Below, piece by piece: positions 1,781 through 25,259 of a DNA stretch of 41,967 bases; the first letter of the stretch is position 1, and each line of letters begins with the position of its first letter. Source of the DNA: a virus. The stretch spans positions 1 through 41,967 of IMG/VR virus record IMGVR_UViG_3300019776_000166. One strand, given 5' to 3'. A model generated the notes under the pieces. It did no database searches, was not told where the DNA came from, and saw nothing but the letters and a program-made list of their open reading frames with translations. The position numbers and the translations under genes were made by a program.

Positions 1781-1790
1781 GTACGCGCAC
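1781..1790 (-). promoter_or_regulatory. Late-region intergenic motif GTGCGCGTAC, copy 4
   Basis: Exact 10-mer on the transcribed strand, 16 bases after the TAG of the giant ejection gene and about 49 bases before the fibre start. It is one of four exact copies (also 12888, 18696 and 25250), each in an intergenic gap of the late region. Its function is unknown. Confidence 0.6.
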
Positions 1791-1806
1791 CTAAACTGCT
1801 TCTACC

Positions 1807-4800
1807 CTATTGTTTTGAATACCCAAATAAAACAGCTAATGGGTTTTCAGTCTTACCTTCCGATAGGGCAATCACACCATCCACAGTACGATTGATCTGA
1901 GCGCTTGGTAAATGCAATGCGATACCGCCCACATTGATTACCGATCTTGCTAAGGCACGATCTAGCTCACCTTGACCAATCTGTTTGCCCAGTTTGTCTA
2001 ACTCTTGGAAGAAGCGTAAACCCGCTGGGCCACCATAGGCAGTGTCAAACATCTTTGTGCCAGTGATGTATTGGACTGCGCCAGTCGCTTCGCGTAGGCC
2101 TACCATCAAGCCCATGAGATAGCTAATCTGCTCTGAGGCCAATTTGCGTGCAATCTTTTCCCAATCATCATCGCCAGCACCACTTGGCATCAAGGCGTCT
2201 TTGAGTAACGAGGCCAATACAGAGGGTACGGAATAGAGTAAGAGGAAATCCCAGGCTAAAGCCATGACTTCGACTGGACTCTTAAAGTTGGTCTTCTTAG
2301 TCTGGTCAACACCCAAATTGTAGGCAGCGCTAAAGTAGCCATAGAACACAGTAAAGAGTTTTTGCAAATTGCCACCGCGTTGCACTTTTGCTAAATCTTT
2401 AATTTGACCGCCACCTTGAGAGTCGATGACTGCCTGATCTGCTCTGGCAATTGCAGTTTGCTCATCTACACCATTCTCAGCATCCATTAGTGCAGGATCA
2501 GCCAAAGCCTTCTGATACGCGCCCCACCAAGTCGGCATATCGGCAACAAGCTGCAAAGATTGCATTGGCGCAAACATCAACGCATCGAGCTTTTCGCGGA
2601 TCTCGCCCTTACCTTGAACAATCGACTGCACTTCATTGACTTCACGATTTAGCGTTCTAGCGCGATTGCGCATAAATTCAGACTTCTCATGCACTTGCTT
2701 GACCAGGCCAATTGGGGATTTAGCCCATTCAACAATGCCAAGTCCAATCCAGCGAGTGCCAACGCGAACCATAGACTGAGTTAAACCCAATGGCTGAAGC
2801 ATGGAGTTCATCAAGTTAAAGCCTAGACCAGCTACCGCAGCACCAGAGCGCAGCGGAGTTAAGACCTTAGACATTGCATCCATATCAGGCGAATCGCCTT
2901 TGGCAATGTCAGTAATCGCTGATTTAAATTGAGCAATGACATCAGCACCAAAACCAGTGCGAATCGCGTGATCCAAGGACTCATTCTTGATAATGCGATT
3001 GGCATCGATAACCCATTCATGCCAGGTCAAATCATGGATCACATCATTGACGCCCCTAAAGAGCGCATCCCAAGTCAGAATCAATGGACGGCCTGTGACT
3101 TCTTCAGCACGATCTTTAGTAAAGGATCTGCGAGTCGTCGCTGCATTGAACGCACCACGCATCATTTGTTTAGCAGCCTCGGCATCAGCAAACTGCTCCG
3201 CCCTACCTGATTCACGAGGATCGTACACAATCGGGAAGTAACCGCCATTGAGATCAAGCTGCGTACCTTCTTTAGTGGTGACAGTGAGGCGTTGTGGCTC
3301 TACCCAGTTTGGCTCTTTACCCATCACGCGACGCTCTTTTTCAGCGATCATTGGGCGATAGGATTCAAAGAAATCCCAGATATTCTGCACAAAATTCCAA
3401 TCGGCAGCCGTCAAGTTTTTCATTACAGGCGTTAATTGCTCGATCTGCCAGCCGCGACCATCCAGTAAGCGCTGCTGGTTTCCTGCATTACCCATGTTTA
3501 AGGCAATAACAATCTGCTCTCCGCGATTCAAGCTCTCTTTCAAAGTCGGGAAGTATTGTCCTTTACCGCCAAATTTACCGCCCTTGAGGATTGGCTCAAG
3601 TAAAGCAGAGAGGCGATGAGTTGCATCAGCACGCATAGTAGCTTCGTGATCCCCAGCTTTATTCATGCTGCGAATCAGGTATTCCCACATTGGCCCTTTC
3701 TCGTTATAGCCATCTAGCTCACGGGCAAGACTGGCTGTTTTACGATGGGCTGCAAAGAATCCTTTGAATAAGCGAACGGCCTTATTACCCAAGGTATCGC
3801 GAGTACGATTATCGATCTGTCGATCATTGGCATTTTTTTCGACTGATTCGACCATCTGATTAATGATGTCCGAGAATCGGCGATTGTCTTGCGCAGTCAA
3901 TAACTTTTCTTTGAGGCGGCCTAGATGCTCAATCTGTTTAATCGAATCAATTAATCCGCGCAACTCTTCTACTGTCATATCCTTATAGGACTGACGATAG
4001 GCTTCTGCCTTGATCTTGCTAGGTAAATCTACCTCAATACCCAGTTCTTCTTGCTGGGCAATCCAAGCTGCCAAAGACTTGCGCTTATCAATAGTTTTAA
4101 GAGTTGTGCCTTTACGCAAGTCAAAGCGCTCTAGGATGGCATCGATCTGATCTAGGTAATCGACATCCAATGCCTTGCGTGTACCTTCTTTGTCAAACTT
4201 GGACAAGTAACGCAGGCCTTTTTCAACTTCTTCCTGGGCGTCATACACTGCTTTAGTCGCGTAAGTATTGATAATCTGGTTACGCTTTTCGGCTGCTGCT
4301 TGTTCTAGCTTGCCTTCTTTTAGAGCTTTCTCGGCAGCTTTAGCAGCGCGGACTTCGGACGCCGCATACGGAGATGGTTTGAGATTACGAATGATCAGGC
4401 GATCGATCATATTCTTAGCAAATTCCTTGGCAGCGCTAACCAAGACTTTAGGTTTTCCAGTCGCTTTATTAAGGGCGTTCAATTCAGTAGCTACAAACTT
4501 GGCACGCGCCTCATTGTGAATCGCAACATCGGCAGCCTGCTCTAATGCTTGTGGGCTAGTAATGTCACCATAGCGCTCTAGCATCATCTGGTCTGTCAGA
4601 TTGGCAATAGCTTCTTTTGGATTTGGCAAAGTTAGTAAGGATTGAACTAGCTCATCACCTGAGCTAATACCAAACTGTTCAGCCACTAGATCAGGATGAA
4701 TACCATTGATAGCCACCAGCTTCATCGCTTCTAACTGATTGATCTGATCTCTTGGCACTGGCAATCCGACCAATTCACCAAAGTCTAAGCGCCCTGCACC

Positions 4801-7800
4801 CAGATCTTCTAAGTTGATGCCTTCACCAGCGCGGCCTTCTTGACCGAGTAATCGTGGATCAACGCCAACGGCATACTGTGGATCACCCCGCAACTCAGCA
4901 TCGATCTTGTCTTCTAGCTCATGGGTATCAAACTTGCCATGCTCATCGACTGTCAAATAGCCATAATTAGCAAGGATCTCACCCATAAAGTCTAAGGACT
5001 CTCCACCATTACGCTTAAAGACATATTTGCCAAAAGCAGGCATTGGGCTCTTCATCTTAGGATCTAAACCCATGAGGGCATCGATCTCATCGCGCTTGAG
5101 GCCGCCGAGCTTGGCAATTGCCGTAAACATGGAATCGACTTCTGGTGTCACTGTGTCTTTGTCAGACTTTGGCAGCGCATCAGGAACGATCTTCTGATCT
5201 TTTTCAATGCGATTGGTGAGGAATGTCCAGGCTTGATAGATTGGTTGACTCAATACCTCACGACGCGCATCCATCATTACTTCAGCGCGACGGGCGACAT
5301 TTTGCTTTTGCAGCTTTTTAATGATCTTGCCTCTGGCATTGTGTAGCCATTGCATATCCTTTAGGCCTTTAGCCTCCAATGAAGAGAGGGCTTCCATAGA
5401 CGCATCTAAGTCAAGCGCGTGGTAGGCAGCAAATTCTTCAGTTGTCATACCCGCTTGATCAGCCGATTCAAACAAAGGCATCATCGATCTGCCCTGTTCA
5501 GCTAATTGGATCTGCTCTGATGACGCCAGCATACGATCAAATACCTGACGGATAGAATCATCGAGCTTGCCTGCTTCTGGGTTACGCGCCACAAAGTCTT
5601 CAATCGACTTATAGACATTCATTAACCAGGCGCGGAAAGCCTGGAATATGCGCTGCAATTCAATGGATGGCGCTTTACCTTCAAACAAATAACGCTCGAA
5701 AGATTCAGCAGTCCGCTCATGGTAGCTGCGCTTTTCTTCTGGGCTTAATGTGTACCACTGATTAAGCTGGTCATTCAGATTGCCTTGTAAGCCATGCCAT
5801 TCAAGCATCTTGCTAACATCGCCCATGAGCTGACGCTCACCTTCAGTTAAAAAACTTGCGCCCATATCTGCGGCAGTACGGCTTAGATCAGCGACTAAGT
5901 TAATGTCACTTTCAAAGAAGAAGTGGCCTGATTCATGCAGGAATGTGGATAAATCTGCGGATTTAAGCAAAGTAATAATGCTTGGGGATTTGCTAATGTC
6001 AGATCCAAATGAGATCTGACCCCGCTGGGCTTGAAATAAAGTCTGGCCCGACATCACGGCTGCGCGGATTTCTGGAGTTACAGTAAAGCCAAGTTGAGTA
6101 AGGCTTTCTGTTTCGCCGCGAATAGACTCATCTCCATGACCTAATTCTTGACGCTCCATGATGTGAGTAAGGCGCTCTGCTTCATCAAAGTCACGACGCT
6201 TTTCTGCTGCTTGGATTTGATCGTAAGTAACTTTCTTTTCTGATCCTATTTCCATAGGCTCAATTTTTCCGCCGCCTACTTTTTTAAGAACATCATTAAC
6301 TACTTTTGGCAAAATTTTGTCATAGAATCCTTCCATACCTTCTCCTCCAACTTTTAGATCTAATCCAGAGTAGGAATGAAAATGCTCACGATTATTGGCA
6401 AAGTCATCTTTAATTTTTGATGCCAAATCTTTTCCAACATGATCCTCAAGATCAATAAGATTGAAAAGTGTTTTATTGATTACTTGATTTGCTTCTTGAT
6501 CATAGGCGGTTAATTTAAAACTTTTAACTGCGCCGCTATCATCTACATCTCGCTCAATGTCTAAATTATTAATTTCTTTAGAAAGATCAAAACGATCTGC
6601 CGCTTGTTCTCCATTTACAAAGGCCACTTTGTCATATCCATTCTCAGCGGCGTAACGAGTAATTCGCTTAATAGCTAATCCTGTCCAGGCTTTTGTATCT
6701 TTTAGCGGTGCATTTGGCACGCCATATTGCGTCATCATTTTGACAATATCTTCATCGCTACTATTTGCTACCGATTCTTGGGAGTATCCGTTGTCAAGCA
6801 TTTTTTGCCTTGCTTGTTCAATTGACATATCTCCACGATAACCCTTCTTACGACCAGCTTGATGCCAGTCTGATTGGATCTCTTCTACAAATAAGACCTT
6901 ATTTCCTTCTGCATCAGTACGATCATTAAAACGGATATGGGCTAATACATTTAGGTCATCCCAATGAGAAGATTTGTAGTTACTTTTGGGATCTGCTTCT
7001 GGCTGCTTTTCACGCAAGATGTAGGCTTTGGCTTCAGCCTCAGTCTTATACCTAGATTTAGGGATTTGGAATACTTGTTCTGGAGCATTGAAATACCAGA
7101 ATCGATCTGGATCACTAGCAATCTTTGTGTAGATAGATCCTAAATCACCCATGCGCTTGACTTCAGCATCGGTCATTTCAAAAATATCTTTACTCATTAA
7201 AGTCTTATATTCAGCCTCTTCTTCTGGGGTTAATGCTTTCTGTGGCTCAATAGCTGTGACATTTTCGTTTGTGTAAGTAACGCCGCCCTGCTCTGGCAGG
7301 GTAATCAATAGTTCTTTGTAGTTTTCCCCGCCTGGCAAAGTCCACTTGCCATACTTGGTAATTCCTTCTTTTTCAAGTCTAAGCCCAAGATCCATAGCAA
7401 TATGCTGCGGCTCACCTTCTGCAATGGTGTCACCAGTTTCGTCATCTATTAAATATGAATAACCCTCTGGGCCACGATCATCGAATGTATATCCGCGTGA
7501 TTCGGCATATTGAGCAATAGCAGACTGCGCTCTTTCACCTTCAGATCTGGAATCGCCTAATAACTTCTCACTAAGCTGCACGCCGTTCTCATTGATAAAC
7601 TGCGCAACTTGCTCTTTAGTGAGCTTTTCTTTACCTTTTAATTCCAGGTAATCTTTAATGCCTGACCATTCAATTTCTTCCTTTTTAACGCCTGGGAGTG
7701 AATTGATAATAGGCAGCCAGTCTTTTGCTGGAGCTGTGGCCTGCTTTGCAGCCATTACTGCCTGCGCTAAACCTGAGTAAAAAATAGGATTTGACTGGTT

Positions 7801-10053
7801 ATAAGAAGACTTGTTGAAGTCTGAAAGAATACGATCTACAATATTCTCTGGGGCGTTAGGAAGCGAGTCGCCTTCCTGTGAATCTTTGGCAGCGTAGATA
7901 GTCGTGCCAGAAGCACCCCTCTCACCTTTCTCGTAAGCAGATAAAAGCCATTTCTTTTCTTGGCCTTTCCAGTTCAAACTAATAGCAGATTTGTGATCAT
8001 CTGATTCTAAGATGATTCTATTCTTGCCTTTGTTCTTAACTGTCATGCCATCTAGGATGTCTTGTAGCTTATTTTCCAGCTCTGGATGTTTAGCTAAGAT
8101 CTTTGCCAGGCCATAGCCTCCCGCATAGTCCTTAGTTGCATCACCCTCTTCACCCCAGATCAAATCGATAGCACCTATTTCTGGGTGATTTAATGCGCCA
8201 ATGGCTTCACCTGATTTAGCTTGCTTGAGGTGCGCCACAGCTTCATTAGTCTTGCCTACAAATTGCTCAAACTTTTGACCAAATGCGCCAGTGCCAGGCT
8301 GTTGCAATACATTGTCACCCGTGACTGTATCGGCAGTGACTTTCAATAAATGCTTATTAAACAAGGCCTCTGGCGTCATGCTTAATTGAGCTGCGCGAAC
8401 GGCAGTACGAGCTGCAATTAAAGTCGCATCGATCTCATTCTTTTGCTCTGTAAAGCGATTGGCTTCATTCAGATTATCTAGCACCATCTGATACACTCGA
8501 TCACGACTGGCTTTAAATTCTTGAGTCTGCTCACTTTCACCCAATAGACGCTCTACTTCAGATTTGAGATTAGCGCCATGAGTCTTAATGAACTCTTGGG
8601 CCTCTACCTGGCTCATACCCTGTGGATCAGTCTTTAAATGCTGAATAAGCTGTTGGGAATAAGTCTGGCCTGCTAACTGGGTAGCGAACTCAGTAATCGG
8701 GATAGATAGATCAGTATTGGTAGCAAGGGATTCTTGGAGCTGCGCGCTAACCAATGGGGAGGTCTGAGAAAAGTCTTCCATTTTGATGCCAGCTTGTTCA
8801 AGGGTTTGCATCAGCACTTGTGGCTCAATGTAAACATGATCGATTTCGCCATCTTCTAGTGCAGATTGCAAGAATGTCTGGAATGAATCAGTATCGCGGG
8901 CGCGTAGCTTACTTGCTGTCGCCAAGGTGTTGAGCTGAGTTAATAGCTCTGCTGAATGTTCTGCTCTGCGTACTTGATCAGATTGCCCTGTGAATTGATC
9001 TGTGAGCTTTTGCGCTCCTTTTGCTAATGTGACTTGACCACCAACGCCAACAACTGTGGCAATTAAGGTCTGAGCGGCTGCGGATGGGCGCTCTGCAATG
9101 TAATCAGAAAATGGTTTATTTGGGTTAATTACTGCCCATTCATTGAGATCTTGCAAGATCGTAGCGATCTGCTCGCCAGGAATCTCACTTGCCATCTGAT
9201 GTGCAATGACTTTATAAAATGGTGAACCGACTTTCAGATCTTTGATCAAATACTGCACTGGCAACTTCTCAGTAGCGTATTCAATTAAGCCTTGTGACGC
9301 GCCATAGACAGCGGATTCCGTAGGTGAAATACCTTTTTCACGGGCATCAGAATACGCATTACCCGCTACTGGAGCGACCATGCTACTTAGATAAGCGCTC
9401 TGGCCTCCTGGCACAAACGCCAATGGCAAGGCTAAAAGGTTTTGTGAAAGCGACTCAATACCACTATTGATGCCACTAGAAATAATGCCTTCTGATTTTG
9501 GACGATTGGCCTTAGCGCCTGCGTCGGCTGATTGCCCCAGCGCATCAAATCCAGCAGCGACTCTACGCAGTGGATTTTCTGGCAAGATCGTGCCAGCCAA
9601 AGGATCTAATAAAGGTGCTGCTAATTCAAACCCTGCTCTAAATACGCCTGCTGCGCCTCGACTGGCTGAGTATGCTCCAGCAATTGCATCGCCCTTGAGA
9701 TCTTTTAGAGCGCCCAATACCTTTTCGGTATTCGACATATTGCTTACATCATCATGGGCAATATTGGCGTTTTCTTGTTTTGCTAAGAATCGCGCTGTAT
9801 TGGGGTATTGATCCGCAATTTGATCAAAGTTTGTCGTCAGCATAGCAGCTTGACGACGCACCTCTTCTGGGTGCGCCCTGGCTGAATCAACGGGAATGTT
9901 TAAAACACTGGCAGTCTTGCGCAGATCTGCTTCTTGATCTGGGTTTACTCCTAAAGCCGTATCAAACGAAACACGCAAACTTTGCGTGGTTTCTTGTTTT
10001 TTATCGCCTAGATAGGAAAGGACTGCACTTTGTATTTCATTTGGATCAGCCAT
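1807..10053 (-). CDS. Giant polyvalent internal virion / DNA-ejection protein
   Basis: At 2748 residues this gene takes up a fifth of the genome. Recognisable segments: residues about 620-720 (AIDLIWGEEGD, GLAKILAKHPEL) resemble the PBECR nuclease-like domain; residues about 1000-1075 (VLAHIRFNDR, FVEEIQSDWHQAGRKKGY) resemble a conserved block of phage polyvalent proteins; H1373, E1374 and H1377 in FLHESGHFFFE form a zincin HExxH-type metallopeptidase motif; a hydrophobic stretch near 2600-2620 (LLLYSVPSVLASLL) lies close to the C-terminus. It follows the transglycosylase ejection gene with an 8-nt overlap, the place of T7 gp15/gp16. It is likely packaged in the head and delivered to the host with the DNA. 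Domain names are from memory of polyvalent proteins, not from a search. Confidence 0.8.
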   Translation of the reverse strand: MADPNEIQSAVLSYLGDKKQETTQSLRVSFDTALGVNPDQEADLRKTASVLNIPVDSARAHPEEVRRQAAMLTTNFDQIADQYPNTARFLAKQENANIAHDDVSNMSNTEKVLGALKDLKGDAIAGAYSASRGAAGVFRAGFELAAPLLDPLAGTILPENPLRRVAAGFDALGQSADAGAKANRPKSEGIISSGINSGIESLSQNLLALPLAFVPGGQSAYLSSMVAPVAGNAYSDAREKGISPTESAVYGASQGLIEYATEKLPVQYLIKDLKVGSPFYKVIAHQMASEIPGEQIATILQDLNEWAVINPNKPFSDYIAERPSAAAQTLIATVVGVGGQVTLAKGAQKLTDQFTGQSDQVRRAEHSAELLTQLNTLATASKLRARDTDSFQTFLQSALEDGEIDHVYIEPQVLMQTLEQAGIKMEDFSQTSPLVSAQLQESLATNTDLSIPITEFATQLAGQTYSQQLIQHLKTDPQGMSQVEAQEFIKTHGANLKSEVERLLGESEQTQEFKASRDRVYQMVLDNLNEANRFTEQKNEIDATLIAARTAVRAAQLSMTPEALFNKHLLKVTADTVTGDNVLQQPGTGAFGQKFEQFVGKTNEAVAHLKQAKSGEAIGALNHPEIGAIDLIWGEEGDATKDYAGGYGLAKILAKHPELENKLQDILDGMTVKNKGKNRIILESDDHKSAISLNWKGQEKKWLLSAYEKGERGASGTTIYAAKDSQEGDSLPNAPENIVDRILSDFNKSSYNQSNPIFYSGLAQAVMAAKQATAPAKDWLPIINSLPGVKKEEIEWSGIKDYLELKGKEKLTKEQVAQFINENGVQLSEKLLGDSRSEGERAQSAIAQYAESRGYTFDDRGPEGYSYLIDDETGDTIAEGEPQHIAMDLGLRLEKEGITKYGKWTLPGGENYKELLITLPEQGGVTYTNENVTAIEPQKALTPEEEAEYKTLMSKDIFEMTDAEVKRMGDLGSIYTKIASDPDRFWYFNAPEQVFQIPKSRYKTEAEAKAYILREKQPEADPKSNYKSSHWDDLNVLAHIRFNDRTDAEGNKVLFVEEIQSDWHQAGRKKGYRGDMSIEQARQKMLDNGYSQESVANSSDEDIVKMMTQYGVPNAPLKDTKAWTGLAIKRITRYAAENGYDKVAFVNGEQAADRFDLSKEINNLDIERDVDDSGAVKSFKLTAYDQEANQVINKTLFNLIDLEDHVGKDLASKIKDDFANNREHFHSYSGLDLKVGGEGMEGFYDKILPKVVNDVLKKVGGGKIEPMEIGSEKKVTYDQIQAAEKRRDFDEAERLTHIMERQELGHGDESIRGETESLTQLGFTVTPEIRAAVMSGQTLFQAQRGQISFGSDISKSPSIITLLKSADLSTFLHESGHFFFESDINLVADLSRTAADMGASFLTEGERQLMGDVSKMLEWHGLQGNLNDQLNQWYTLSPEEKRSYHERTAESFERYLFEGKAPSIELQRIFQAFRAWLMNVYKSIEDFVARNPEAGKLDDSIRQVFDRMLASSEQIQLAEQGRSMMPLFESADQAGMTTEEFAAYHALDLDASMEALSSLEAKGLKDMQWLHNARGKIIKKLQKQNVARRAEVMMDARREVLSQPIYQAWTFLTNRIEKDQKIVPDALPKSDKDTVTPEVDSMFTAIAKLGGLKRDEIDALMGLDPKMKSPMPAFGKYVFKRNGGESLDFMGEILANYGYLTVDEHGKFDTHELEDKIDAELRGDPQYAVGVDPRLLGQEGRAGEGINLEDLGAGRLDFGELVGLPVPRDQINQLEAMKLVAINGIHPDLVAEQFGISSGDELVQSLLTLPNPKEAIANLTDQMMLERYGDITSPQALEQAADVAIHNEARAKFVATELNALNKATGKPKVLVSAAKEFAKNMIDRLIIRNLKPSPYAASEVRAAKAAEKALKEGKLEQAAAEKRNQIINTYATKAVYDAQEEVEKGLRYLSKFDKEGTRKALDVDYLDQIDAILERFDLRKGTTLKTIDKRKSLAAWIAQQEELGIEVDLPSKIKAEAYRQSYKDMTVEELRGLIDSIKQIEHLGRLKEKLLTAQDNRRFSDIINQMVESVEKNANDRQIDNRTRDTLGNKAVRLFKGFFAAHRKTASLARELDGYNEKGPMWEYLIRSMNKAGDHEATMRADATHRLSALLEPILKGGKFGGKGQYFPTLKESLNRGEQIVIALNMGNAGNQQRLLDGRGWQIEQLTPVMKNLTAADWNFVQNIWDFFESYRPMIAEKERRVMGKEPNWVEPQRLTVTTKEGTQLDLNGGYFPIVYDPRESGRAEQFADAEAAKQMMRGAFNAATTRRSFTKDRAEEVTGRPLILTWDALFRGVNDVIHDLTWHEWVIDANRIIKNESLDHAIRTGFGADVIAQFKSAITDIAKGDSPDMDAMSKVLTPLRSGAAVAGLGFNLMNSMLQPLGLTQSMVRVGTRWIGLGIVEWAKSPIGLVKQVHEKSEFMRNRARTLNREVNEVQSIVQGKGEIREKLDALMFAPMQSLQLVADMPTWWGAYQKALADPALMDAENGVDEQTAIARADQAVIDSQGGGQIKDLAKVQRGGNLQKLFTVFYGYFSAAYNLGVDQTKKTNFKSPVEVMALAWDFLLLYSVPSVLASLLKDALMPSGAGDDDWEKIARKLASEQISYLMGLMVGLREATGAVQYITGTKMFDTAYGGPAGLRFFQELDKLGKQIGQGELDRALARSVINVGGIALHLPSAQINRTVDGVIALSEGKTENPLAVLFGYSKQ

Positions 10054-12840: not shown

Positions 12841-12887
12841 AAGGATTCCTTGAGTGAATAGCTAAAAAATACTGCTTTCCACCAGAG

Positions 12888-12897
12888 GTACGCGCAC
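12888..12897 (-). promoter_or_regulatory. Late-region intergenic motif GTGCGCGTAC, copy 3
   Basis: The motif starts directly after the TAA of the nozzle gene (12898-12900) and lies 48 bases before the gp14-like ATG. It is identical to the other three copies over 10 bases. The 47 bases after it are not conserved between copies, apart from being fairly AT-rich. Confidence 0.6.
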
Positions 12898-16126: not shown

Positions 16127-16148
16127 GCTTTTCTCCTAATTAATTCAA

Positions 16149-16613
16149 TTAAAGAACTGCAAAACCAACTGGGTAGAACTTCTGACCATCAGCAATATCT
16201 GTACCGAGTTCAGCGATCACTGCACCAGCAGTACCAGTACCAGTAGGTGTATAACGAACACCTAAATAGCGTTGGCCTTTAGAACCGATGCGTGGGTTTG
16301 CGCCCACTGCAAAGCGTGAACCAGCGGTCAAAGATGCAACTGGAATCGCGCCAGAAGAACCAATAACAGTTAAGTTAGTAGTCAAGGCTGCATCGTCAGC
16401 AACAACGATTTCGATTGTCAGAGCTGTCAAGCCAGTAAATGCTGTTGGAACACCAACGCGCATATTGAGTTCGCCACCTTCGCCGATGTCGCGGTTCTGG
16501 AGCAGATCTACTGTGTTGGTTGACAACACGGCAGAAGCGCCAGTAACAGTTTGACCAGTCCAAGTGCCGTTTGACCAAGAACCCGATAGGGTTAGGTAGT
16601 TATCGATCATCAT
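16149..16613 (-). CDS. Bbp16-like capsid cement/decoration protein
   Basis: The 154-residue beta-rich protein (SAVLSTNTVDLLQNRDIGEGGELNMRVGV, FYPVGFAVL at the end) resembles the Bbp16 family of Bordetella phage BPP-1, which decorates and stabilises the capsid. The position immediately after the major capsid gene, as in BPP-1, supports the call. Two consecutive ATGs occur; the first (16611-16613) has the better spacing to AAGGA. No enzymatic motif is present. Confidence 0.8.
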   Translation of the reverse strand: MMIDNYLTLSGSWSNGTWTGQTVTGASAVLSTNTVDLLQNRDIGEGGELNMRVGVPTAFTGLTALTIEIVVADDAALTTNLTVIGSSGAIPVASLTAGSRFAVGANPRIGSKGQRYLGVRYTPTGTGTAGAVIAELGTDIADGQKFYPVGFAVL

Positions 16614-16644
16614 AATTTAGATTCCTTTATCAATTAGTTATTGG

Positions 16645-17649: not shown

Positions 17650-17673
17650 TGTTTAATTCCTTTCGTTATTTGA

Positions 17674-18366
17674 TTACTGATTCGGGTAGAGCGATTTAGC
17701 TGGATCTCTCGCCCCACTAAAACCACCTATGCCACCTGGCACAAAGCGGTCTTCACTGATTTGCTTCCCAGCTCGGTAGAACGCCCTAATAATTTCTGGG
17801 TGATTTCCCAAGCCTGATTCATTGAGCAACGCGCGTAGCTCTGGCGTACCAAAGGTTTCTAAGGCCTTCTTTGCCACTGCTAGGTTTTCGTTTAACTTTT
17901 CGCCACCAAACTCTTTGTCAGCGGTTGCTGACTGAACCCACTCTGCTTTCGCAGTTTCTAGGGTGTTGGCTTGCTTTTCAGCAAAGGCATTTCCAAGTTT
18001 GTCGATTACCTTTTGCGCACCTTCTTGAGTCAGTTTCAATTCCTTGGCAACTTCTGAAAATTGTTCGAGAACTGCTGGATCGAACTCGCGCCCTTCGGGA
18101 GCTTTAAATTCATACTTCTCAGGCACTACTGGTTCATCAGCAGCTTTAGCCTGGTCGCCTTCAGTTTTGCCTTCTGTGCTGTCTTGTGGAGCAGCAGCAG
18201 CGGGTTGACTATCAGTTGGTTGTTGACTCTGTTGGGCCGCAGTTGCGTCCGTTGCAGCAGCGCTTGTCTGGGCTGTTGCAGTTGTGGTTGCTTCTGTTGC
18301 ACCAGTTGATGCAGCGCCGTCAGTGTTATTTGTGGCGTCCGTCATCAGCGTGTTTGTTTCTGACAT
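17674..18366 (-). CDS. Capsid scaffold protein
   Basis: The 230-residue product has a low-complexity Thr/Ala/Gln/Asp-rich N-terminal 75 residues, then an acidic helical region (PVVPEKYEFKAPEGREFDPAV, FSEVAKELKLTQEGAQKVID) and a C-terminus ending RDPAKSLYPNQ. The KYEF-KAPEG motif with a following helical region is typical of podoviral scaffolds encoded next to the capsid gene. It should be in the procapsid interior and absent from mature heads. Its start overlaps the 18326-18667 gene by 41 nt in another frame. Confidence 0.85.
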   Translation of the reverse strand: MSETNTLMTDATNNTDGAASTGATEATTTATAQTSAAATDATAAQQSQQPTDSQPAAAAPQDSTEGKTEGDQAKAADEPVVPEKYEFKAPEGREFDPAVLEQFSEVAKELKLTQEGAQKVIDKLGNAFAEKQANTLETAKAEWVQSATADKEFGGEKLNENLAVAKKALETFGTPELRALLNESGLGNHPEIIRAFYRAGKQISEDRFVPGGIGGFSGARDPAKSLYPNQ

Positions 18367-18667
18367 CGTTTTGCTCCTTGAGCATTAATGCGTATTGGTC
18401 TGGACTCACTTCATTAATTTGTGCCATAAGCATCAAACCGACATTTCGTTGGCCTTCCCTAAAGAAAGTTTCTGAGTTGCCTGTAAATGAACTGCGGTAC
18501 ACACCAGTACGCTCCAGCAGCCGCCACACTATGCGGCGACCTCTCTTACTTCCCATGAGCCATTTAAAATCGTCTTTTTCCTGATCGACAATCAGTTTTA
18601 TGCGCTCGTCAGAATCTTCTTTCTTGCGCTCCTGACCTCTCAGGTCAAATGGATCAAAATCACTCAT
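18326..18667 (-). CDS. Bbp19-like structural-module protein
   Basis: The 113-residue charged helical protein (KWLMGSKRGRRIVWRLLERT, FREGQRNVGLMLMAQI) resembles the Bbp19 family of BPP-1-like phages, found just before the scaffold gene. Its biochemical role is not established to my knowledge. Gene overlap with the scaffold suggests coupled translation. Its ATG (18665-18667) follows copy 2 of the intergenic motif and a near-palindrome. Confidence 0.75.
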   Translation of the reverse strand: MSDFDPFDLRGQERKKEDSDERIKLIVDQEKDDFKWLMGSKRGRRIVWRLLERTGVYRSSFTGNSETFFREGQRNVGLMLMAQINEVSPDQYALMLKEQNDVRNKHADDGRHK

Positions 18668-18695
18668 GCGATTAATTTATGCTGATCAGGCATAA

Positions 18696-18705
18696 GTACG
18701 CGCAC
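18696..18705 (-). promoter_or_regulatory. Late-region intergenic motif GTGCGCGTAC, copy 2
   Basis: The motif begins one base after the TAA of the 18707-19222 gene. It is followed immediately by TTATGC, C, TGATCA, GCATAA, an 18-bp palindrome interrupted by one base (18676-18695 region), which could be a dimeric protein site or a small hairpin. Only 28 bases then remain to the next ATG, the shortest of the four gaps. Confidence 0.6.
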
Positions 18706-18706
18706 C

Positions 18707-19222
18707 TTACGGCCTTCTACGCGATCGGAAAGTGGGCATGAATGTTTGGTTAACCGATCCTGTGCCACTGATAAATGGTTGATAACCAGTAAAGCGCAAA
18801 TGGCCTGTTGATGGTGTGATGGAGTTGCTTGCAGTCTGATTAATCGATGGGCTGTATCCTGTAAACAAAATATGCCCTGTATTGGGATTGATTGATTGCG
18901 CAGCCGATTGCGATACGCTAGGCGAGTAACCCGCTAGTACCAAATGCCCTACTCCTGGCGCAACTGATACCGATCGCAATACAGTAGGAATGTAACCCGT
19001 AAAACTCAGATGGCCAGTGCTAGGATTTAATCCGCTGGTAGTGCTTTGTGCAACGCTAGGCGAATATCCCGTTAAGTTGAATTGCCCAGTTCCAGGATTG
19101 AGGATGCTGGTAATGGATTGGGATATGGATGGTGCATATCCCGTAAATCCAAGATGTCCTTTACCAGGAGCAAGTGTATTGGTACTTGATCCTGATCCAA
19201 GGTTTTGAATTATTAGGAGCAA
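18707..19222 (-). CDS. Tandem-repeat structural protein (GHLxFTGYxPS repeats)
   Basis: The 171-residue product consists of nearly six copies of a 22-24-residue unit with consensus P-x-TGHLxFTGYxPSxxQS, from about residue 21 to 155, and an Arg-rich end (TFRSRRRP). Each unit probably forms two beta strands, giving a fibrous or beta-solenoid body. The start is TTG at 19220-19222 with a perfect AAGGAG at six-base spacing. It lies among portal-proximal structural genes, so a head fibre or decoration role is possible. No function is assigned. Confidence 0.65.
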   Translation of the reverse strand: MLLIIQNLGSGSSTNTLAPGKGHLGFTGYAPSISQSITSILNPGTGQFNLTGYSPSVAQSTTSGLNPSTGHLSFTGYIPTVLRSVSVAPGVGHLVLAGYSPSVSQSAAQSINPNTGHILFTGYSPSINQTASNSITPSTGHLRFTGYQPFISGTGSVNQTFMPTFRSRRRP

Positions 19223-19232
19223 TCAATACTCC

Positions 19233-19868
19233 TTAATATTCATAGCCCGTAATAGATACATCCCATGTTGGCGCATTGGTAGTAAATACAGCATTGGCAG
19301 TCACGCCAAACTGTACTGTGCCGTTACCAACTATTTCTATGCCTTCATTACCCAATGTAAAAGACACGCGATCCCAAGCAGAGGCGGTGGCTGGGGTTGC
19401 AGTTCTGGCCGAATAAATCGCGCTACTTGTGGTGGTGACAGCACCCGCATTATTGACGCGAATAGTAAAGGTAGTGGCTTGTGTTGTTGCGGTAGCATTG
19501 CCGCGTGATCCAAAAGTAATATTGGTAATGCGAAAAGTCTTACCTGATGTCGGCGTAAAGCTAGACCCAGTAGTAGTGGCGCTACCCAATGATTGACTGG
19601 TTGTTAGAGTAATGGCGGTTTCAGTACCCGTTGTACCAGCCGCAGCGCCATTAGCCCAGAATTGCTTAAATACGCGACTGGCGTTTTGGTGCATGACTGG
19701 CAATGGAAACAATGCAGAAGCGTCCCTAGCAGTATTCTCATCCCCAAATCCGACCTTTACGCGCTGCACTTTAACGCCAGAAGATGCGCTGCCATTGAGC
19801 GTAGTGACATCATCGGTAGCGATCGTATCGCCACCAGTACCACTGTTTAGTAGTGTGTTATCAGCCAT
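19233..19868 (-). CDS. Structural protein, unknown role
   Basis: The 211-residue product has a short N-terminal segment seen in many phage head proteins (VKVQRVKVGFGDENTARDAS, then LFPLPV) and a beta-rich Thr/Ser/Ala body (TITFGSRGNATATTQAT-like stretches; end WDVSITGYEY). It has neither signal peptide nor enzymatic motif. It lies in the run of small genes between portal and scaffold and may be a surface decoration protein. The two-base gap to the next gene upstream indicates cotranscription. Confidence 0.6.
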   Translation of the reverse strand: MADNTLLNSGTGGDTIATDDVTTLNGSASSGVKVQRVKVGFGDENTARDASALFPLPVMHQNASRVFKQFWANGAAAGTTGTETAITLTTSQSLGSATTTGSSFTPTSGKTFRITNITFGSRGNATATTQATTFTIRVNNAGAVTTTSSAIYSARTATPATASAWDRVSFTLGNEGIEIVGNGTVQFGVTANAVFTTNAPTWDVSITGYEY

Positions 19869-19870
19869 GA

Positions 19871-20329
19871 TTAAGTCGCATCAAACCAGCCTGTTGCTGG
19901 AGTATTAATGGTTAAAGTATTACCAGTAGTCGTTGCAGGAATATCCGCAGGCGTAGAGTCGCCGACAAAATACCCAATCACGGGATTGACTTTGCCCCAG
20001 AGCGTGCCGCTGACATACAGAACGGCATAGCGCCAGGCGTTAATTGATCCACCAGTAGCAGTCCAGCTCACATTGGCGCTAGAGAATTTATATCCCCCAG
20101 TAATGGCAGTGGCTACCATCGAGGCCAAGGATGCGCCGCCAGTGGTGTAACCCGTACCACCCGCAATCTCATTAGCACTCATGTCTGCCCATAAGCTATT
20201 GCCAGTAACAGTCGCATCTGGAGTCCAAGCACTAGAAACGAGGGCCAACTTCACAGTCGCGCCCACAATGTCAGTGATATTGATGTCTGCTTTGTTTTTA
20301 CTAAATAAAGTAATGTTGCCTGATGCCAT
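19871..20329 (-). CDS. Structural protein, unknown role
   Basis: The 152-residue product (MASGNITLFSKNKADIN, VKLALVSSAWTPDA, WRYAVLYVSGTLWGKVNPVIGY split) resembles small phage proteins that pair an N-terminal strand motif with the sequence VKLALVSS-x-WTPD, often found in structural modules. The composition is beta-rich. It abuts the coiled-coil gene with no intergenic base. A minor head or collar protein is likely, but the exact place in the virion is not known. Confidence 0.6.
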   Translation of the reverse strand: MASGNITLFSKNKADINITDIVGATVKLALVSSAWTPDATVTGNSLWADMSANEIAGGTGYTTGGASLASMVATAITGGYKFSSANVSWTATGGSINAWRYAVLYVSGTLWGKVNPVIGYFVGDSTPADIPATTTGNTLTINTPATGWFDAT

Positions 20330-20806
20330 TTAAACCCCCAGAATTTCTGCCATTTTTGCTTTGGCGCGTGTAATCTTTGCTTCTATATCTGCCAGCTCTT
20401 GCGCTGCCACTGCGTTTTTTGCTTCGACATCGTGTAGCTCTTGTTCAGATTGCGCTAAGAATCGCTTGGTATTGGCAGCAATCTCCTCTGCCTGCTCTTG
20501 CGCAGCCTGTTCTAAATGCGAGGCATTAGCCTGCGCTGCCGAAAGAATCTGATGGGCGCGAGTAATGGCATCTTCTTCAGAGGCTTTTAAAGACTCTTTG
20601 GCTTTAGAGAGCGCATCTTTAGTTTTTACCAACTCAGCATCGATGGATTCTTTTTCTTTTTGCGCATTGACCAGCGCAATATTGGCTTCGCGGATGGCCT
20701 GCTCTACGCTAGTCATTCCTTCTAGCGCATCGGCTAGATCGATCACTGATTGAAAGGTACGCGATAGGCTGCGTACATTCTCGATTGCTTGTGAAATATT
20801 AGCCAT
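20330..20806 (-). CDS. Coiled-coil protein in the head module
   Basis: The 158-residue product is almost wholly predicted coiled coil from about residue 25 to 150 (EKESIDAELVKTKDALSKAK, EQAAQEQAEEIAANTKRF), rich in Ala, Glu, Lys and Gln. There is no transmembrane segment. Such proteins can be scaffold-like, head-fibre or ejection components; here the separate scaffold is already present, so a fibre or internal rod is a reasonable guess. Its ATG overlaps the end of the 20799-21158 gene by 8 nt. Confidence 0.6.
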   Translation of the reverse strand: MANISQAIENVRSLSRTFQSVIDLADALEGMTSVEQAIREANIALVNAQKEKESIDAELVKTKDALSKAKESLKASEEDAITRAHQILSAAQANASHLEQAAQEQAEEIAANTKRFLAQSEQELHDVEAKNAVAAQELADIEAKITRAKAKMAEILGV

Positions 20807-21158
20807 TGCGCATTTTCCTTACAGAGAGAATGACTGTGATTGATGTTGTGCCGTCACCCGCTAAGACTCTGGGGCGAATCAAATCCACATTTTCGAGAAC
20901 TGCTTTGAGATCTGCGCTAGAAAAGATGAGCTTTGATCCAGTGGGATCACGCAGCGCATACCAATTTACCCCGCCATCGAGCGATCCTTCGATCTGTACT
21001 TGGCCGCCTGCACCAAAAGTACCTTGAATTTGCACTGTACGATCACCAGAAGCAACTACCCCAATAGCTGATCCTGTATCACCCAGCGCCATGTTTGCCC
21101 AAGTGTATAGACCATTACCAATGAGAATGTCGTTCGAGGTGGCAACTACTGTGGCCAT
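20799..21158 (-). CDS. Small beta-rich structural protein
   Basis: The 119-residue protein has the pattern GDRTVQIQGTFGAGGQVQIEG followed by S-L-D-G-G-V-N-W, typical of a small beta-sandwich found repeatedly in phage head modules. It ends RPRVLAGDGTTSITVILSVR. No catalytic residues are visible. It may be a capsid decoration or a spike component next to the 21476-21745 protein. Confidence 0.6.
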   Translation of the reverse strand: MATVVATSNDILIGNGLYTWANMALGDTGSAIGVVASGDRTVQIQGTFGAGGQVQIEGSLDGGVNWYALRDPTGSKLIFSSADLKAVLENVDLIRPRVLAGDGTTSITVILSVRKMRNG

Positions 21159-21160
21159 GA

Positions 21161-21466
21161 TTAGTCCTTATCGCTTCCATAGAGCATTGAGGCTGACTTG
21201 TTTGAGCTGCTTGCATTACCCACTTCTAGGTCAGTAATCTGCAATTCCAAGTACAACTCTTGATCATCGTCACCAACATCGACCTCTTGAGTCACGCAAG
21301 TAGCTACTGCCATCGCGCGCAAAGATAAAACTGTGCCCGCTGCTGGAGTTGATAAGCCCAATATTTCGCATTGTTTAGGATTAAGACGGATACATAAGCC
21401 ATAGCCATAAGGGTTGCTTTCTAGCGCTTCGTTTTCTTCGGGTACAGCCATGTTTTTTAAGGCCAT
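21161..21466 (-). CDS. Small structural protein, possibly capsid-staple-like
   Basis: The 101-residue product has ALKNMAVPEENEA, YGYGLCIRLNPKQCEILGL, and a central beta core ending LYLELQITDLEV. The layout (LKNM, then a short proline segment, then YGL-x-I-x-L and a final L-Q-I-T-D) resembles small proteins annotated as capsid staples in some phages, a resemblance from memory. The role is unproved. The gene is preceded by the 21476-21745 gene with a 9-nt gap and followed by a 2-nt gap. Confidence 0.55.
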   Translation of the reverse strand: MALKNMAVPEENEALESNPYGYGLCIRLNPKQCEILGLSTPAAGTVLSLRAMAVATCVTQEVDVGDDDQELYLELQITDLEVGNASSSNKSASMLYGSDKD

Positions 21467-21475
21467 GATGAATCC

Positions 21476-21745
21476 TTAGTAGCAGGCAAAAATGCCAGTT
21501 GAGGTTGTACCAGTGGCCAAGATGCGTTTAGCGCGAATGAATTGCACTGCGCCAAACCAGTTGGTGTTTACGGGAATCGTGACTTGCGTACCTTTTGCAG
21601 TTACGAATGTCACATTTCCTGCTGTGGTAAATAACATTCCGCGTGATACGCCATTAGGCAAATCTGTGGAATCACTTGGGGTTACGGCCTGTAAATCGTT
21701 AATGGGGCTGTAATCGTTGGTCGTATCTAAAAATGGATATGGCAT
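21476..21745 (-). CDS. Small spike-base-like protein
   Basis: The 89-residue protein contains AVTPSDSTDLPNGVSRGML, an interior GNVTFVTAKGTQVTI strand pair and the end FIRAKRILATGTTSTGIFACY. This arrangement (a DST-DLP motif, a beta hairpin, then a conserved ATGTT) resembles the RCAP_rcc01079-type spike-base proteins, which are tiny beta-barrel head-spike anchors. It lies directly after the portal gene. The call is by pattern; head-spike function remains an inference. Confidence 0.6.
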   Translation of the reverse strand: MPYPFLDTTNDYSPINDLQAVTPSDSTDLPNGVSRGMLFTTAGNVTFVTAKGTQVTIPVNTNWFGAVQFIRAKRILATGTTSTGIFACY

Positions 21746-21757
21746 GGTTCTACTCCT

Positions 21758-23467
21758 TTATTGAGGTTGTTGGTTATAGCCAGAGAACATTCCCATCACA
21801 TCAGTCAGAGCGCTTTGTTTGCTGGTATCTGCGCTTGCTAATGTTTTGGCTGTTTGTGCGCCCTGTGCCATCGCTTCTTGCTGTGCTTGGGCTTGCGCCA
21901 TCTTTGCTCTGTCTTGACGAATGAGCGCTACTTTGTCGCTTGGCACGATGAGTTCTGGATCGACACCGAGCATATCGGAATACATTTCTGCCCATTTATC
22001 AGCATCGATGTTGTCCAATACTTCTGGCTTGAGCTGCGCCACCATGCCAATATTTCCCATAAAGCGATCAACGCCATTGGTAGCTACGGCACGCTGGGCT
22101 TGTGCCAACATGGATACAAACTCCACATTGATCTCCGCGCCCTGCAACTCTTCTGGTGGTGGTGGCACGATGCCTGCTGCCATCATGCGATTGAAGGTCA
22201 TTTCAATCAATGGATCTAACAGCTCATTTTGTAATCGCTCTAAGACTGGGCCAAGCATCAAGAGCTTTTCTTCATGGCGCTCTGCTACTTCTGTGGCCGT
22301 CATTCTGGAGTCAGCTTGATTAGCCAGCATCAGGAATAGATCGGCATAGAATGATCCGCGAATCCTCTCGCGCACATCTTGAATGTCCGCTAATAGATGG
22401 CTTAAATCGAGGTTGACTTCAAATGCTGTTTGGATGCCTGCTGTATTGGTAGTGGCATCGACAAATGAAATACCCCCTGGCAAGGTTTCAATATCCCTGT
22501 TCTTCATGGATGTTGGTACTTGCAATGGTGGTTTAGTCTTGTAGTCAATACCTTGAGCTTTACGGAGCTGCTCATGCTGGAGCTGCTTGATGTCGCCTAA
22601 TGCTTCCATGCCAGGACTATTGCCGTAGATGTCGCCACCCGATGTCGCCCATCTAGGCGCTAATGCTGGAAAGTGTTTGAATCCTGACTCGGACAAATAA
22701 CGATTCTTTTGTCCATTGAGTTCAAAGTAGCAGGAGCGATAGGCCATATTGAGCGCATCTTTCTTGCTTGGATCGCGATCAGAGCGTGGTTCAATCGCAT
22801 GAATAATCGTAATCCATTGATCCAATGAACCCCTGTCGTACATCGTGCGAACCGAATTGGAGCATTTATCATAGCCAAACTCCCCTACTATTTCGTGAAC
22901 TGTCTTTTGAAACTCGCGATAGATCGTGTTGACTTGGCCGCGATAATCCGTAGCAATTGCAAACTCGCCTGTGGTTAATGGGTAATGACGGATCACATCT
23001 TGATAGTCATCCATCACAATCGAGGCTGATGTACCGAACGCGCCCAGCTCTTCATACATGGAATGGAGTGCGCGATAAGTGTTGCCCCGCTGGAAGATCT
23101 CCAGCATCAAAGTAGTGACTTGGTTAAGCCATACCTTGACTGGTTGGTATTGCATGAGGTCGTGGTCAGCAATACCAAGTCTGAACCAAGGGCGTGCAGG
23201 ACTGGTCATACCCGACATCATTCCCGCAGCTAACACTCTGAGGGCGCGAGTACCAGTTGAATCATAGATATTGTTGTGCCTGCGCCAGCCTTTATCGCGA
23301 TCCTGGACAAAGAATCGGCCTGATCGCGGCAGCATATAGTCACTGATCTCTTTCCAGTGCGCTAACCATGATGCGCGTTCACTTTTGAGTTGACCCCAGC
23401 GCGTATAGAGCTTATCTCTATCTGGTGATTTGGTATTTGGCTGGTTATCGCCCGTGTATTCACTCAT
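21758..23467 (-). CDS. Portal protein (head-tail connector)
   Basis: The 569-residue product matches podoviral portals: RWGQLKSERASWLAHWKEIS at the N-terminus, then MLPRSGRF, an RALRVLAAGMMSGMTSPARPWF block, and GDIKQLQHEQLRKAQGIDYK followed by the PPLQVP segment. The clip/crown end (about 510-569) is Gln/Ala-rich. It forms the dodecameric DNA channel at one capsid vertex. The next gene upstream ends four bases before its ATG. Confidence 0.92.
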   Translation of the reverse strand: MSEYTGDNQPNTKSPDRDKLYTRWGQLKSERASWLAHWKEISDYMLPRSGRFFVQDRDKGWRRHNNIYDSTGTRALRVLAAGMMSGMTSPARPWFRLGIADHDLMQYQPVKVWLNQVTTLMLEIFQRGNTYRALHSMYEELGAFGTSASIVMDDYQDVIRHYPLTTGEFAIATDYRGQVNTIYREFQKTVHEIVGEFGYDKCSNSVRTMYDRGSLDQWITIIHAIEPRSDRDPSKKDALNMAYRSCYFELNGQKNRYLSESGFKHFPALAPRWATSGGDIYGNSPGMEALGDIKQLQHEQLRKAQGIDYKTKPPLQVPTSMKNRDIETLPGGISFVDATTNTAGIQTAFEVNLDLSHLLADIQDVRERIRGSFYADLFLMLANQADSRMTATEVAERHEEKLLMLGPVLERLQNELLDPLIEMTFNRMMAAGIVPPPPEELQGAEINVEFVSMLAQAQRAVATNGVDRFMGNIGMVAQLKPEVLDNIDADKWAEMYSDMLGVDPELIVPSDKVALIRQDRAKMAQAQAQQEAMAQGAQTAKTLASADTSKQSALTDVMGMFSGYNQQPQ

Positions 23468-23471
23468 ATTT

Positions 23472-23990
23472 TTATAGTCCTAACATCGTGCTTTTGTTTA
23501 ATTTGTAGGTGTTATCTGGCCCACTGACTGTTCTAGTCGTCAAGGATCCTGACCCTTGAGGTGCGCCCAGAATGGCGGGATCATTTAATGAAGTAGATTT
23601 TTGCTGAGAGTTATCAGCGGCAACTGTTTGTGTACCGCTAGCTTGTCCTTGTCCCTGCGTTGGTTGACCATTTGGCTTTTGCATTGGTTTGCCACCAGTC
23701 AAGATTGATACATCGCCAATTACGCCATTAACGATAGATCCAAAAGCGCCACCAATTTGTCCATGCGCTAAATTTGTACCAGCATCGCCAATCGCTTTGG
23801 CAGAGTTTGTGACTACATCACCAACTTGTTTGCCAACTGTTGCTACTGCATTTCCTACATCAGATACAGCCTTCCCGACTGCGCTAACAACACTACTGAC
23901 ACCACCACCGCCGCCATAAAGACGGATTCGGCGATCTCCGCAATGCTCGAACGCTCCTTCTGGTAGGAATGAATCAAGTCCATACTTCAT
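23472..23990 (-). CDS. Gly/Ala-rich head-module protein
   Basis: The 172-residue product begins with a short polar segment, then a GGGGG stretch and an amphipathic Val/Ala/Gly-rich region (residues 30-95: VVSAVGKAVSDVGNAVATVG), and a Gln/Pro/Gly-rich tail. Together with 24353-24685 it belongs to the small hydrophobic-helix proteins often located before the portal gene in T7-like and BPP-1-like phages. It may be an internal or ejection protein. No motif gives a function. ATGA overlap couples it to the gene before it. Confidence 0.55.
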   Translation of the reverse strand: MKYGLDSFLPEGAFEHCGDRRIRLYGGGGGVSSVVSAVGKAVSDVGNAVATVGKQVGDVVTNSAKAIGDAGTNLAHGQIGGAFGSIVNGVIGDVSILTGGKPMQKPNGQPTQGQGQASGTQTVAADNSQQKSTSLNDPAILGAPQGSGSLTTRTVSGPDNTYKLNKSTMLGL

Positions 23991-24352
23991 TCCACTTTTG
24001 CTTTCCAGTTGTATTGCTCTTTATCAGAATCCATCACTGGAATCCCTAGCATTTTGAGCATTTCAATAATGTGATCGCGATCTGCTTTGCCATAGACATA
24101 TTCCAGATTGGTTTCTCGAATACGCTCAATAAAGCGCATCACGGCCTTAACTAATGCCATGGGCTTATCACTGGTAAACAAATGCAACTCAGCTTCTTTC
24201 TCGCCTATCTTTTTAACGAGCAATACTGAATCGCCTTCATGGTAGGCAACGGCCTCGCCCTTATCAATCCAATGACTGATCGTTTTAAAGATGGGTTCGT
24301 GATCTAATTCACGCTCATCTGCATCAGCTCGGATGATTTCTTCTGGAGTCAT
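23987..24352 (-). CDS. Small alpha/beta protein of the portal module
   Basis: The 121-residue protein (SHWIDKGEAVAYHEGDSVLL, then LHLFTSDKPMALVKAVMRF and NLEYVYGKADRDHIIEML) has an alternating strand/helix pattern slightly reminiscent of GNAT-like folds found in podoviral structural modules. No acetyl-CoA loop is evident, so enzymatic activity is not claimed. It is in the same position as comparable proteins next to T7-type portals. It shares ATGA-type overlap with the next gene. Confidence 0.55.
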   Translation of the reverse strand: MTPEEIIRADADERELDHEPIFKTISHWIDKGEAVAYHEGDSVLLVKKIGEKEAELHLFTSDKPMALVKAVMRFIERIRETNLEYVYGKADRDHIIEMLKMLGIPVMDSDKEQYNWKAKVE

Positions 24353-24685
24353 TTAGCCACCTAGTAATGAGCTTTTGCCCAAGGACAATGTATTGGGATC
24401 AATACCAGCAGGGCCAGTAAGCATCGTGCCCGACTGTCCACCTTTGGCTGATTGTTGATTGGCTGAAAGCAACGCGCCCGTATCTGGTGACTTGGCGTTG
24501 GCTTTATTGATTTGCTCAGTTTGTACTTTGGCCTGCTGATCTGCAATCGTTTTGGCTTGTGCCATAGCATCTTGTTGTGTTGCGTTTGCCTTAGCTGCGC
24601 TTTGTGATGCTGAATACGCGCTATAAGTCACAGCGGCCGCAGCCGCGAACCCCGCCCAAGCCACTGCTGATATACCGAAACTCAT
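24353..24685 (-). CDS. Small hydrophobic-helix head-module protein
   Basis: The 110-residue product has an N-terminal Ala-rich hydrophobic helix (ISAVAWAGFAAAAAVTYSAY), a polar coiled region (QQDAMAQAKTIADQQAKVQ) and a C-terminus SPDTGALLSANQQSAK followed by a Gly-rich LGG-type end. Residues SLGKSSLLGG resemble the STMLGL end of 23472-23990, which suggests a shared short C-terminal motif. It could be a minor internal protein that enters the membrane during ejection. The ATG overlaps the upstream stop (24682-24685). Confidence 0.6.
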   Translation of the reverse strand: MSFGISAVAWAGFAAAAAVTYSAYSASQSAAKANATQQDAMAQAKTIADQQAKVQTEQINKANAKSPDTGALLSANQQSAKGGQSGTMLTGPAGIDPNTLSLGKSSLLGG

Positions 24686-25200
24686 TGTGCTAACTCCTTG
24701 ATTTGTTGTTTTGCCTCGGCATAAGTGAGGCCATCGTGATTTGCCATAACTAATTTGGCTTCTGCCTCTTCTACTGTTTTGGCATCAGTGGCATGAAATG
24801 TGATCCAGATCGTGTCTTCATGGGCATAACCGATGCGCTTTGATCCTGGTGGGCATACCAATGTGGCAGGCGCTTTAACGCGCTTTACGCCATCTTCGGT
24901 ATAAACCGATATATCCCCTTGGCTGCATACATTGATATGCTCAAACAGATGCAATGCACCAGTGAGCATCGTGCCTTTAGGAATAAACATTTCCCTGGCG
25001 TACAAGCCATCAGCAAAGTAATGCTTTACTTGAAGTTCTACTTGCGGCAATCCCAGCAGCGCATTTTCAAATGACTGGATGCGCTCACGGCGATCTAATG
25101 CTGGAGCTGAAAAAGACTCGACCACCGCGCCCATTTCGGATTCAGTGTGGAGTTGATCGATACCAATATCGATTTGTACTTCTTCTTGTGCTACTTGCAT
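24682..25200 (-). CDS. Cupin-like phage protein
   Basis: The 172-residue protein has a beta-helical jelly-roll pattern from about residue 55 to 135: VKHYFADGLYAREMFIPKG, LHLFEHINVCSQGDISVYT, APATLVCPPGSKRIGYAHED and WITFHAT. The H-x-F-E-H and Y-A-H-E positions could supply metal ligands, but no specific enzyme family is clear. Similar cupin-like genes are found next to portal genes in podoviruses. It is the first gene after motif copy 1 and the last before the small portal-module genes. Role unknown. Confidence 0.65.
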   Translation of the reverse strand: MQVAQEEVQIDIGIDQLHTESEMGAVVESFSAPALDRRERIQSFENALLGLPQVELQVKHYFADGLYAREMFIPKGTMLTGALHLFEHINVCSQGDISVYTEDGVKRVKAPATLVCPPGSKRIGYAHEDTIWITFHATDAKTVEEAEAKLVMANHDGLTYAEAKQQIKELAQ

Positions 25201-25249
25201 TGTGCGGCCTCACAATTAATTAAGCCTATGCTAAGTATTTAGGGCGCTA

Positions 25250-25259
25250 GTACGCGCAC
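25250..25259 (-). promoter_or_regulatory. Late-region intergenic motif GTGCGCGTAC, copy 1
   Basis: The first G of the motif is the last base of the TAG stop of the small gene 25259-25435. The next start is 50 bases downstream (cupin-like gene). The following gap contains AATACTTAGCATAGGC and the palindrome TTAATTAA, AT-rich enough for a promoter, but no convincing sigma-70 pair at normal spacing is visible. Confidence 0.6.

Follow-up and report, generated by a model that had tools for sequence, protein, structure and literature searches.

The window examined here is the whole of a 41,967-nt stretch of viral DNA (IMG/VR record IMGVR_UViG_3300019776_000166). It is a temperate podovirus, with late genes that resemble those of Bordetella phage BPP-1 (the portal is 68% identical to Bbp21, and the capsid, tail and internal virion proteins also match) and an early region that encodes an S24 repressor, a YdaS/Cro-like protein, a CII-like protein (29569-29880), NinB, NinG, RecT, SSB and an integrase. 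A nucleotide search for close phages returned no match, and the terminase large subunit gene (terL; 25432-26754, minus strand, phrog_2 in PHROG), which lies upstream of the first site described below, served as the query for finding relatives. Two features of this genome are our subject: a 10-letter word, GTGCGCGTAC, that recurs between late genes, and an 87-residue helix-turn-helix (HTH) protein encoded at 27015-27278 on the minus strand. The promoter features described below lie on that strand too.

The word GTGCGCGTAC is found in exactly four exact copies in the record, all on the minus (late) strand, against a chance expectation of 0.04 copies from dinucleotide shuffles and of 0.03-0.07 from Markov models of orders 1-4, and there are no one-mismatch copies anywhere in the record. 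The first G of the copy at 25250-25259 is the last base of the preceding TAG; the copy at 18696-18705 follows a TAA after a gap of 1 nt; that at 12888-12897 directly adjoins the preceding stop, and that at 1781-1790 lies 16 nt beyond it. The distance from the end of the word to the next start is 47-49 nt for three copies and 28 nt for the copy at 18696-18705, whose next start is at 18667. With late-gene assignments taken from PHROG and Pfam matches, the copies partition the late genes into terminase, a GNAT and portal block, a protease, capsid and tail block, the internal virion proteins and the fibre. An initial annotation of this DNA had described the four copies in the late orientation, three within one base of a stop codon and the fourth at 16 bases, as dividing the late genes into five groups, and had suggested a comparison with Markov expectation; our recount, distances and gene assignments agree with it on all of these. 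Between the portal block and the copy at 18696-18705, five consecutive late genes (18707-21158) with few or no homologues in relatives form a variable block.

Every copy is followed, after exactly 16 nt, by a sigma70-type -10 element of the form xAnnnT, and none of the four sites has a TTGACA-like -35 element. In the order of late transcription, promoter 1 has TAGCAT at 25228-25233 with a predicted start at 25221, and TAGCAT or TACAGT is kept there in relatives; promoter 2 has TAAATT at 18674-18679, 6 nt before the ATG at 18667, the A of which is the predicted +1 (leaderless); promoter 3 has TATTTT at 12866-12871 with a predicted start at 12859; and promoter 4, which precedes the fibre and following genes, has a weak CAAACT at 1759-1764, with A and T retained at positions 2 and 6 and a predicted start at 1752. 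These starts would fall 29 bases past the word, inside the range of 10-40 bases that had been guessed at the outset.

The word keeps its places in relatives. Three related genomes (G001, G003 and G006) each have exactly four copies, all on one strand in whole-record counts, at the window's boundaries, promoters 1, 3 and 4 included. Two others (G026 and G046) have three copies each in whole-record counts and share the boundary of promoter 4; one of their three copies sits within the end of terL, with its -10 retained, and extra copies appear once the last base of the word is allowed to vary. The boundary of promoter 2 is shared with near relatives and is occupied by variant boxes in BPP-1, Limnohabitans phage DC33 and others. 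The absence of the motif from these boundaries in close relatives, which the initial annotation had named as an argument against its idea, is thus not what we find.

Promoter 4 is straddled by a hairpin (1739-1781; minimum free energy -23.1, z-score -4.4) that is kept in G001, G003 and G006, and G026, G046 and BPP-1 have a hairpin of different sequence at the same place. Its 3' arm contains the Shine-Dalgarno sequence of the fibre gene and begins beside the predicted start, an arrangement in which the Shine-Dalgarno sequence would be masked in read-through RNA and free in RNA made from the promoter itself. Gene e of phage T4 hides its translation start in read-through RNA in an analogous manner.

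Other members of the group carry boxes of their own. An initial check for GTGCGCGTAC with one mismatch found no boxes in BPP-1 and others, and a search for repeated words within each late-oriented genome then found them, at the same 16-nt spacing: GTGCCCGTGC in BPP-1, GTACCCGTAT in DC33, GTACCCGTAA in zth2-2, GTGCCCGTAT in ctEw122, GTACCCGTA in ctQRb9, and GTACGCGTGA, GTGCGCAAA and GTGTCCGTG in three further genomes (G008, G040 and G025, respectively). Words of the same form, such as GTATACGTA, GTGCACGTA, GTACACATA and GTATCCGTG, emerged in many other loci from a search without a word prior, the top words of the remaining loci being unrelated, and the general form of the box is GTRYNCRWN. At least two grouped sites are present on the late strand in 93 of 140 loci, versus 3 of 140 on the opposite strand. 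We also note that DC33 (L086, PQ492659.1) bears a taxonomy line of Inoviridae and has the genome of a BPP-1-like tailed phage.

The window's word is an imperfect palindrome, and the idea of a dimer reading it as such was rejected: the symmetry is lost across phages (position 6 is C while position 5 varies, and position 2 is T while position 9 varies), which makes asymmetric, oriented binding likelier. The position of the words at module borders, with gene content between them that differs among relatives, could also point to boundary sequences retained for module exchange by recombination. A recombination linker would be expected to be identical between phages, however, whereas the box changes as a set in each phage while the promoter spacing is kept, and we give this explanation almost no weight.

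In BPP-1 itself (L085) the four boxes lie at the start of terS (26284-26293), before bbp24 (24122-24131), before bbp19 (20737-20746), where the predicted start, 20708, coincides with the annotated one, and before bbp9, upstream of mtd, avd, TR and brt (6175-6184). The start predicted from the first box (26255, minus strand) is an ATG inside annotated bbp26 (terS, start 26318), and terS may begin there. At about 6130-6184, on the minus strand, a hairpin followed by TTTTT resembles an intrinsic terminator, its stem straddling the promoter of bbp9-mtd-avd-TR-brt. Since the fourth box sits beside this hairpin, we predict that the operon of the diversity-generating retroelement (DGR) would be expressed from the late promoter, in transcripts starting past the hairpin's 5' arm.

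The spacing between box and -10 is close to invariant. Across 14 genomes, xAnnnT is present at a spacer of 16 in 59 of 61 exact box copies and TAnnnT in 49, while no other spacer from 8 to 25 exceeds 7 and 3, respectively; every exact copy of a phage's own box is among the 61, with no requirement for a -10, and the words of some genomes were originally chosen with the aid of the spacing, those of the window, G001, G003, G006 and BPP-1 being repeats independently of it. No TTGACA-like -35 is found among the 61. In G001 (L121-L123, late-oriented), a further word that is distinct from the late box, AATTCCCGAA, occurs three times, 16 nt before TAnnnT, near the record ends (about 30-190 and 40670).

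Downstream of the -10, an ATG that opens a long open reading frame lies at a distance of 5-7 nt at 68 of 186 sites (41 of them at exactly 6), versus 2.7% in controls. A is enriched at +1 and C at -1, and the ATG sites contribute part of the A signal. With an ATG 6-7 nt past the -10, transcripts would begin at the ATG itself, and late messages would then be leaderless at 18667 in the window and at about 67 sites in related loci, especially at the boundary of bbp19 (the capsid operon); the -10-to-ATG spacing is the sole basis of this prediction.

These regularities bear on whether the word acts in RNA, as a processing signal, a target of small RNAs (sRNAs) or a loading site for an antiterminator. 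Words that adjoin stop codons in gaps, the hairpin at promoter 4 and the lambdoid neighbours NinB and NinG, which suggest a Q-like strategy, would all fit such a role. Set against it are the fixed distance to the -10, the CA at the start, the ATG at +1, the copies of G026 and G046 that keep their -10 within the end of terL, and a covariation partner, described below, that is a DNA-binding helix, and we consider such a role very improbable. The initial annotation had listed antitermination, RNA processing, sRNA targeting and module exchange among its options; none of them is needed to account for sites that the 16-nt spacer, C at -1, A at +1 and ATG at +1 define as promoters, and spacing and covariation together led us to discard the RNA-processing, sRNA-target and recombination-boundary readings. 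Its further option of a late activator, with the HTH protein as the reader, is strongly supported by the promoter architecture and by the covariation of the protein's recognition helix with the box, and is the part that stands; the annotation had overlooked the -10 elements and the way in which the box differs across the family.

Among the window's non-structural proteins, the HTH protein alone has a homologue in every one of the 18 genomes compared, one of which (G010) is a partial record that lacks most late genes. It belongs to a Bbp27-like family (46-52% identity over the HTH) with a homologue in 140 loci. Its gene follows ninB and ninG and precedes the terminase, where the leftward early operon ends, and the order on the same strand is 27015-27278, 26747-27031 and terL in the window and bbp27 and terS/terL in BPP-1. 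In BPP-1, Bbp27 carries the annotation 'endonuclease' and no regulatory one; the label probably arose because an HTH like this one lies near the C-terminal end of phrog_6156. AlphaFold places helices at residues 28-41, 45-52 and 56-63, with the best confidence around residues 31-60 and the last helix as the predicted recognition helix. Sequence and fold searches of the PDB gave generic HTH matches only, and when the family was scanned against Pfam and PHROG, the matches were generic HTH and HNH-associated ones, none of those listed being to a MotA family. The PHROG family phrog_836, 'late transcriptional activator', was weakly matched by 10 of 29 members (best 2.5e-4), alongside many other HTH families.

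An alternative in which a phage or host sigma factor reads both box and -10, and the HTH protein has some other role, could draw on the fixed spacing and the -35 position, which resemble a sigma element, and on weak matches to Sigma70_r4 in 2 of 15 family members; region 2 is absent, and the 87 residues hold one HTH. The -10 is sigma70-like, however, no sigma gene was seen among the window proteins scanned, and the box changes follow the helix of the HTH protein, which a host sigma factor would leave unexplained. We therefore judge this alternative quite improbable.

The link between protein and box comes from covariation, measured by normalised mutual information over 59 representative loci (effective number 35). 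Mutual information peaks for residue 60 with box position 3, residue 65 with box position 4 and residue 61 with box position 5. All 22 cases of K or Q at residue 60 have A3, all 17 of G, D or S at residue 61 have G5, and all 10 of G or C at residue 65 have T4; K61 is accompanied by C5 (23), A5 (7) or G5 (1), and R61 by A5 (4) or G5 (2). After entropy correction, residue 60 is top for box position 3 and residue 61 for position 5, Y65 ties with K76 for position 4, the two highest columns of all are G61 and A60, and the recognition helix scores above the remainder of the protein (p=0.002). A natural swap is provided by two sister phages (L006 and L008; about 78-95% DNA identity in aligned stretches), in which GTACACATAC replaces GTGCGCGTAC in both boxes at the same aligned places and the helix also changes, from VTKSCIAGICQYRRY to VTKRSVAAICQYKRR, with similar flanks and -10. 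For 7 homologues in bacterial genomes (prophages), fetched after the code had been seen, residues 60-61 predict the box in 6 and partly in the other (L235), in a box search restricted to GTRYNCRWN words with positions 3 and 5 free within that form. The natural boxes and their matching helices come close to a specificity code.

We propose that each of the four words forms the upstream element of a late promoter that is used by the host RNA polymerase and activated by the HTH protein, bound in place of a -35 element, and, arguing from sequence, we put the probability of this reading at roughly 0.84. If +1 is seven nucleotides past the -10, the box would lie at about -38 to -29, the place of sigma region 4. 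Since the word is unlike a sigma70 -35, the holoenzyme should depend on a phage protein, bound at the word, for its recruitment or redirection; the HTH protein would provide this through contact with sigma or core, either displacing or assisting sigma region 4. As the HTH protein accumulates, all four late units would fire together, with initiation about 7 nt past the -10, often at the A of the next gene's ATG.

Several observations weigh against this proposal. The -10 of promoter 4 has two of the three key bases only. JessA and some partial loci yielded no clear box. Among low-identity pairs, residues 61, 60 and 65 rank 5th, 3rd and 11th of 53 columns, lower ranks which indicate that part of the covariation is shared ancestry, and one locus (L205) breaks the simple code, with an AKICRYE helix, a GTGTGCATA box and K61 together with G5. 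The AlphaFold model is of moderate confidence (pLDDT 64) and resembles generic HTH folds. Finally, an HTH protein could in principle repress or tune these promoters, with activation coming from another factor or from the host RNA polymerase alone: small HTH proteins are often repressors, repressors are among the weak PHROG matches of the family, and covariation identifies the reader of the box and not the direction of its effect. Yet the box occupies the place of the -35, for which a TTGACA-like sequence is found at 0 of 61 sites, and no other non-structural protein is common to all the genomes compared. Promoters with no usable -35 should fire weakly or not at all if unaided, which makes repression unlikely, although it is the main rival to activation.

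A broader version of the activator proposal, to which we give even odds, is that this small HTH protein would stand in, as a separate polypeptide, for sigma region 4, acting in the -35 register and giving host sigma70 a new specificity for several late promoters, many of them leaderless. On this view, divergence in nature has produced many distinct pairs of protein and box, and the pair found in BPP-1 would govern its tropism-switching (DGR) operon.

The proposal offers a testable account of how late genes are switched on in BPP-1-like podoviruses, among them BPP-1 as the model for diversity-generating retroelements, and suggests a function for a conserved family that is labelled 'endonuclease' or hypothetical. 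No late promoter or activator for this model phage is described in the open literature that we searched, although an earlier mention of the BPP-1 repeats is possible, and a search of that literature with four box words gave no phage paper among the 10 matches listed of 161. The set of boxes and helices should be useful for studying how activators redirect RNA polymerase, and it could supply promoter-activator pairs that are perhaps free of cross-reaction. If true, the conservation of leaderless starts at the promoters of capsid operons would be notable for Proteobacteria.

Known systems share parts of this arrangement. In phage lambda the Q gene follows the nin genes, and CII acts around -35. 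As with Q, the HTH gene stands after nin genes and the late genes would depend on a single delayed-early product; unlike Q, which acts by antitermination from one promoter, it would serve several promoters, and the window has a separate CII-like protein (29569-29880). At the middle promoters of T4, where MotA and AsiA act by sigma appropriation, a MotA box near -30 replaces the -35 upstream of a sigma70 -10 and the host RNA polymerase is used (PMC6755090). The window's sites are similar in having a box in place of the -35 before a sigma70 -10, with a phage DNA-binding protein as the presumed reader. They differ in that the MotA box is centred near -30/-31, with another sequence, while the box described here would span about -38 to -29 and serves late genes, and in that MotA contains a double-wing domain and depends on AsiA, while the window's protein is a small HTH in which no homology to MotA was seen; no AsiA-like partner turned up, with no search directed at one. 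The late promoters of Mu, which are dispersed and have a poor -35, are activated by the small phage HTH protein C (PMC4461284), and the window would likewise combine a small phage HTH protein with several dispersed late promoters. The C dimer, however, binds upstream of or overlapping the -35, with no contact to sigma or to the amino-terminal domain of the alpha subunit, whereas the window's site, short and asymmetric, falls within the -35 register. Closest is BPP-1, with a homologous HTH protein (Bbp27) at the same place, four boxes and the same spacing to the -10, and it differs in having GTGCCCGTGC where the window has GTGCGCGTAC, a change that accompanies a different recognition helix.
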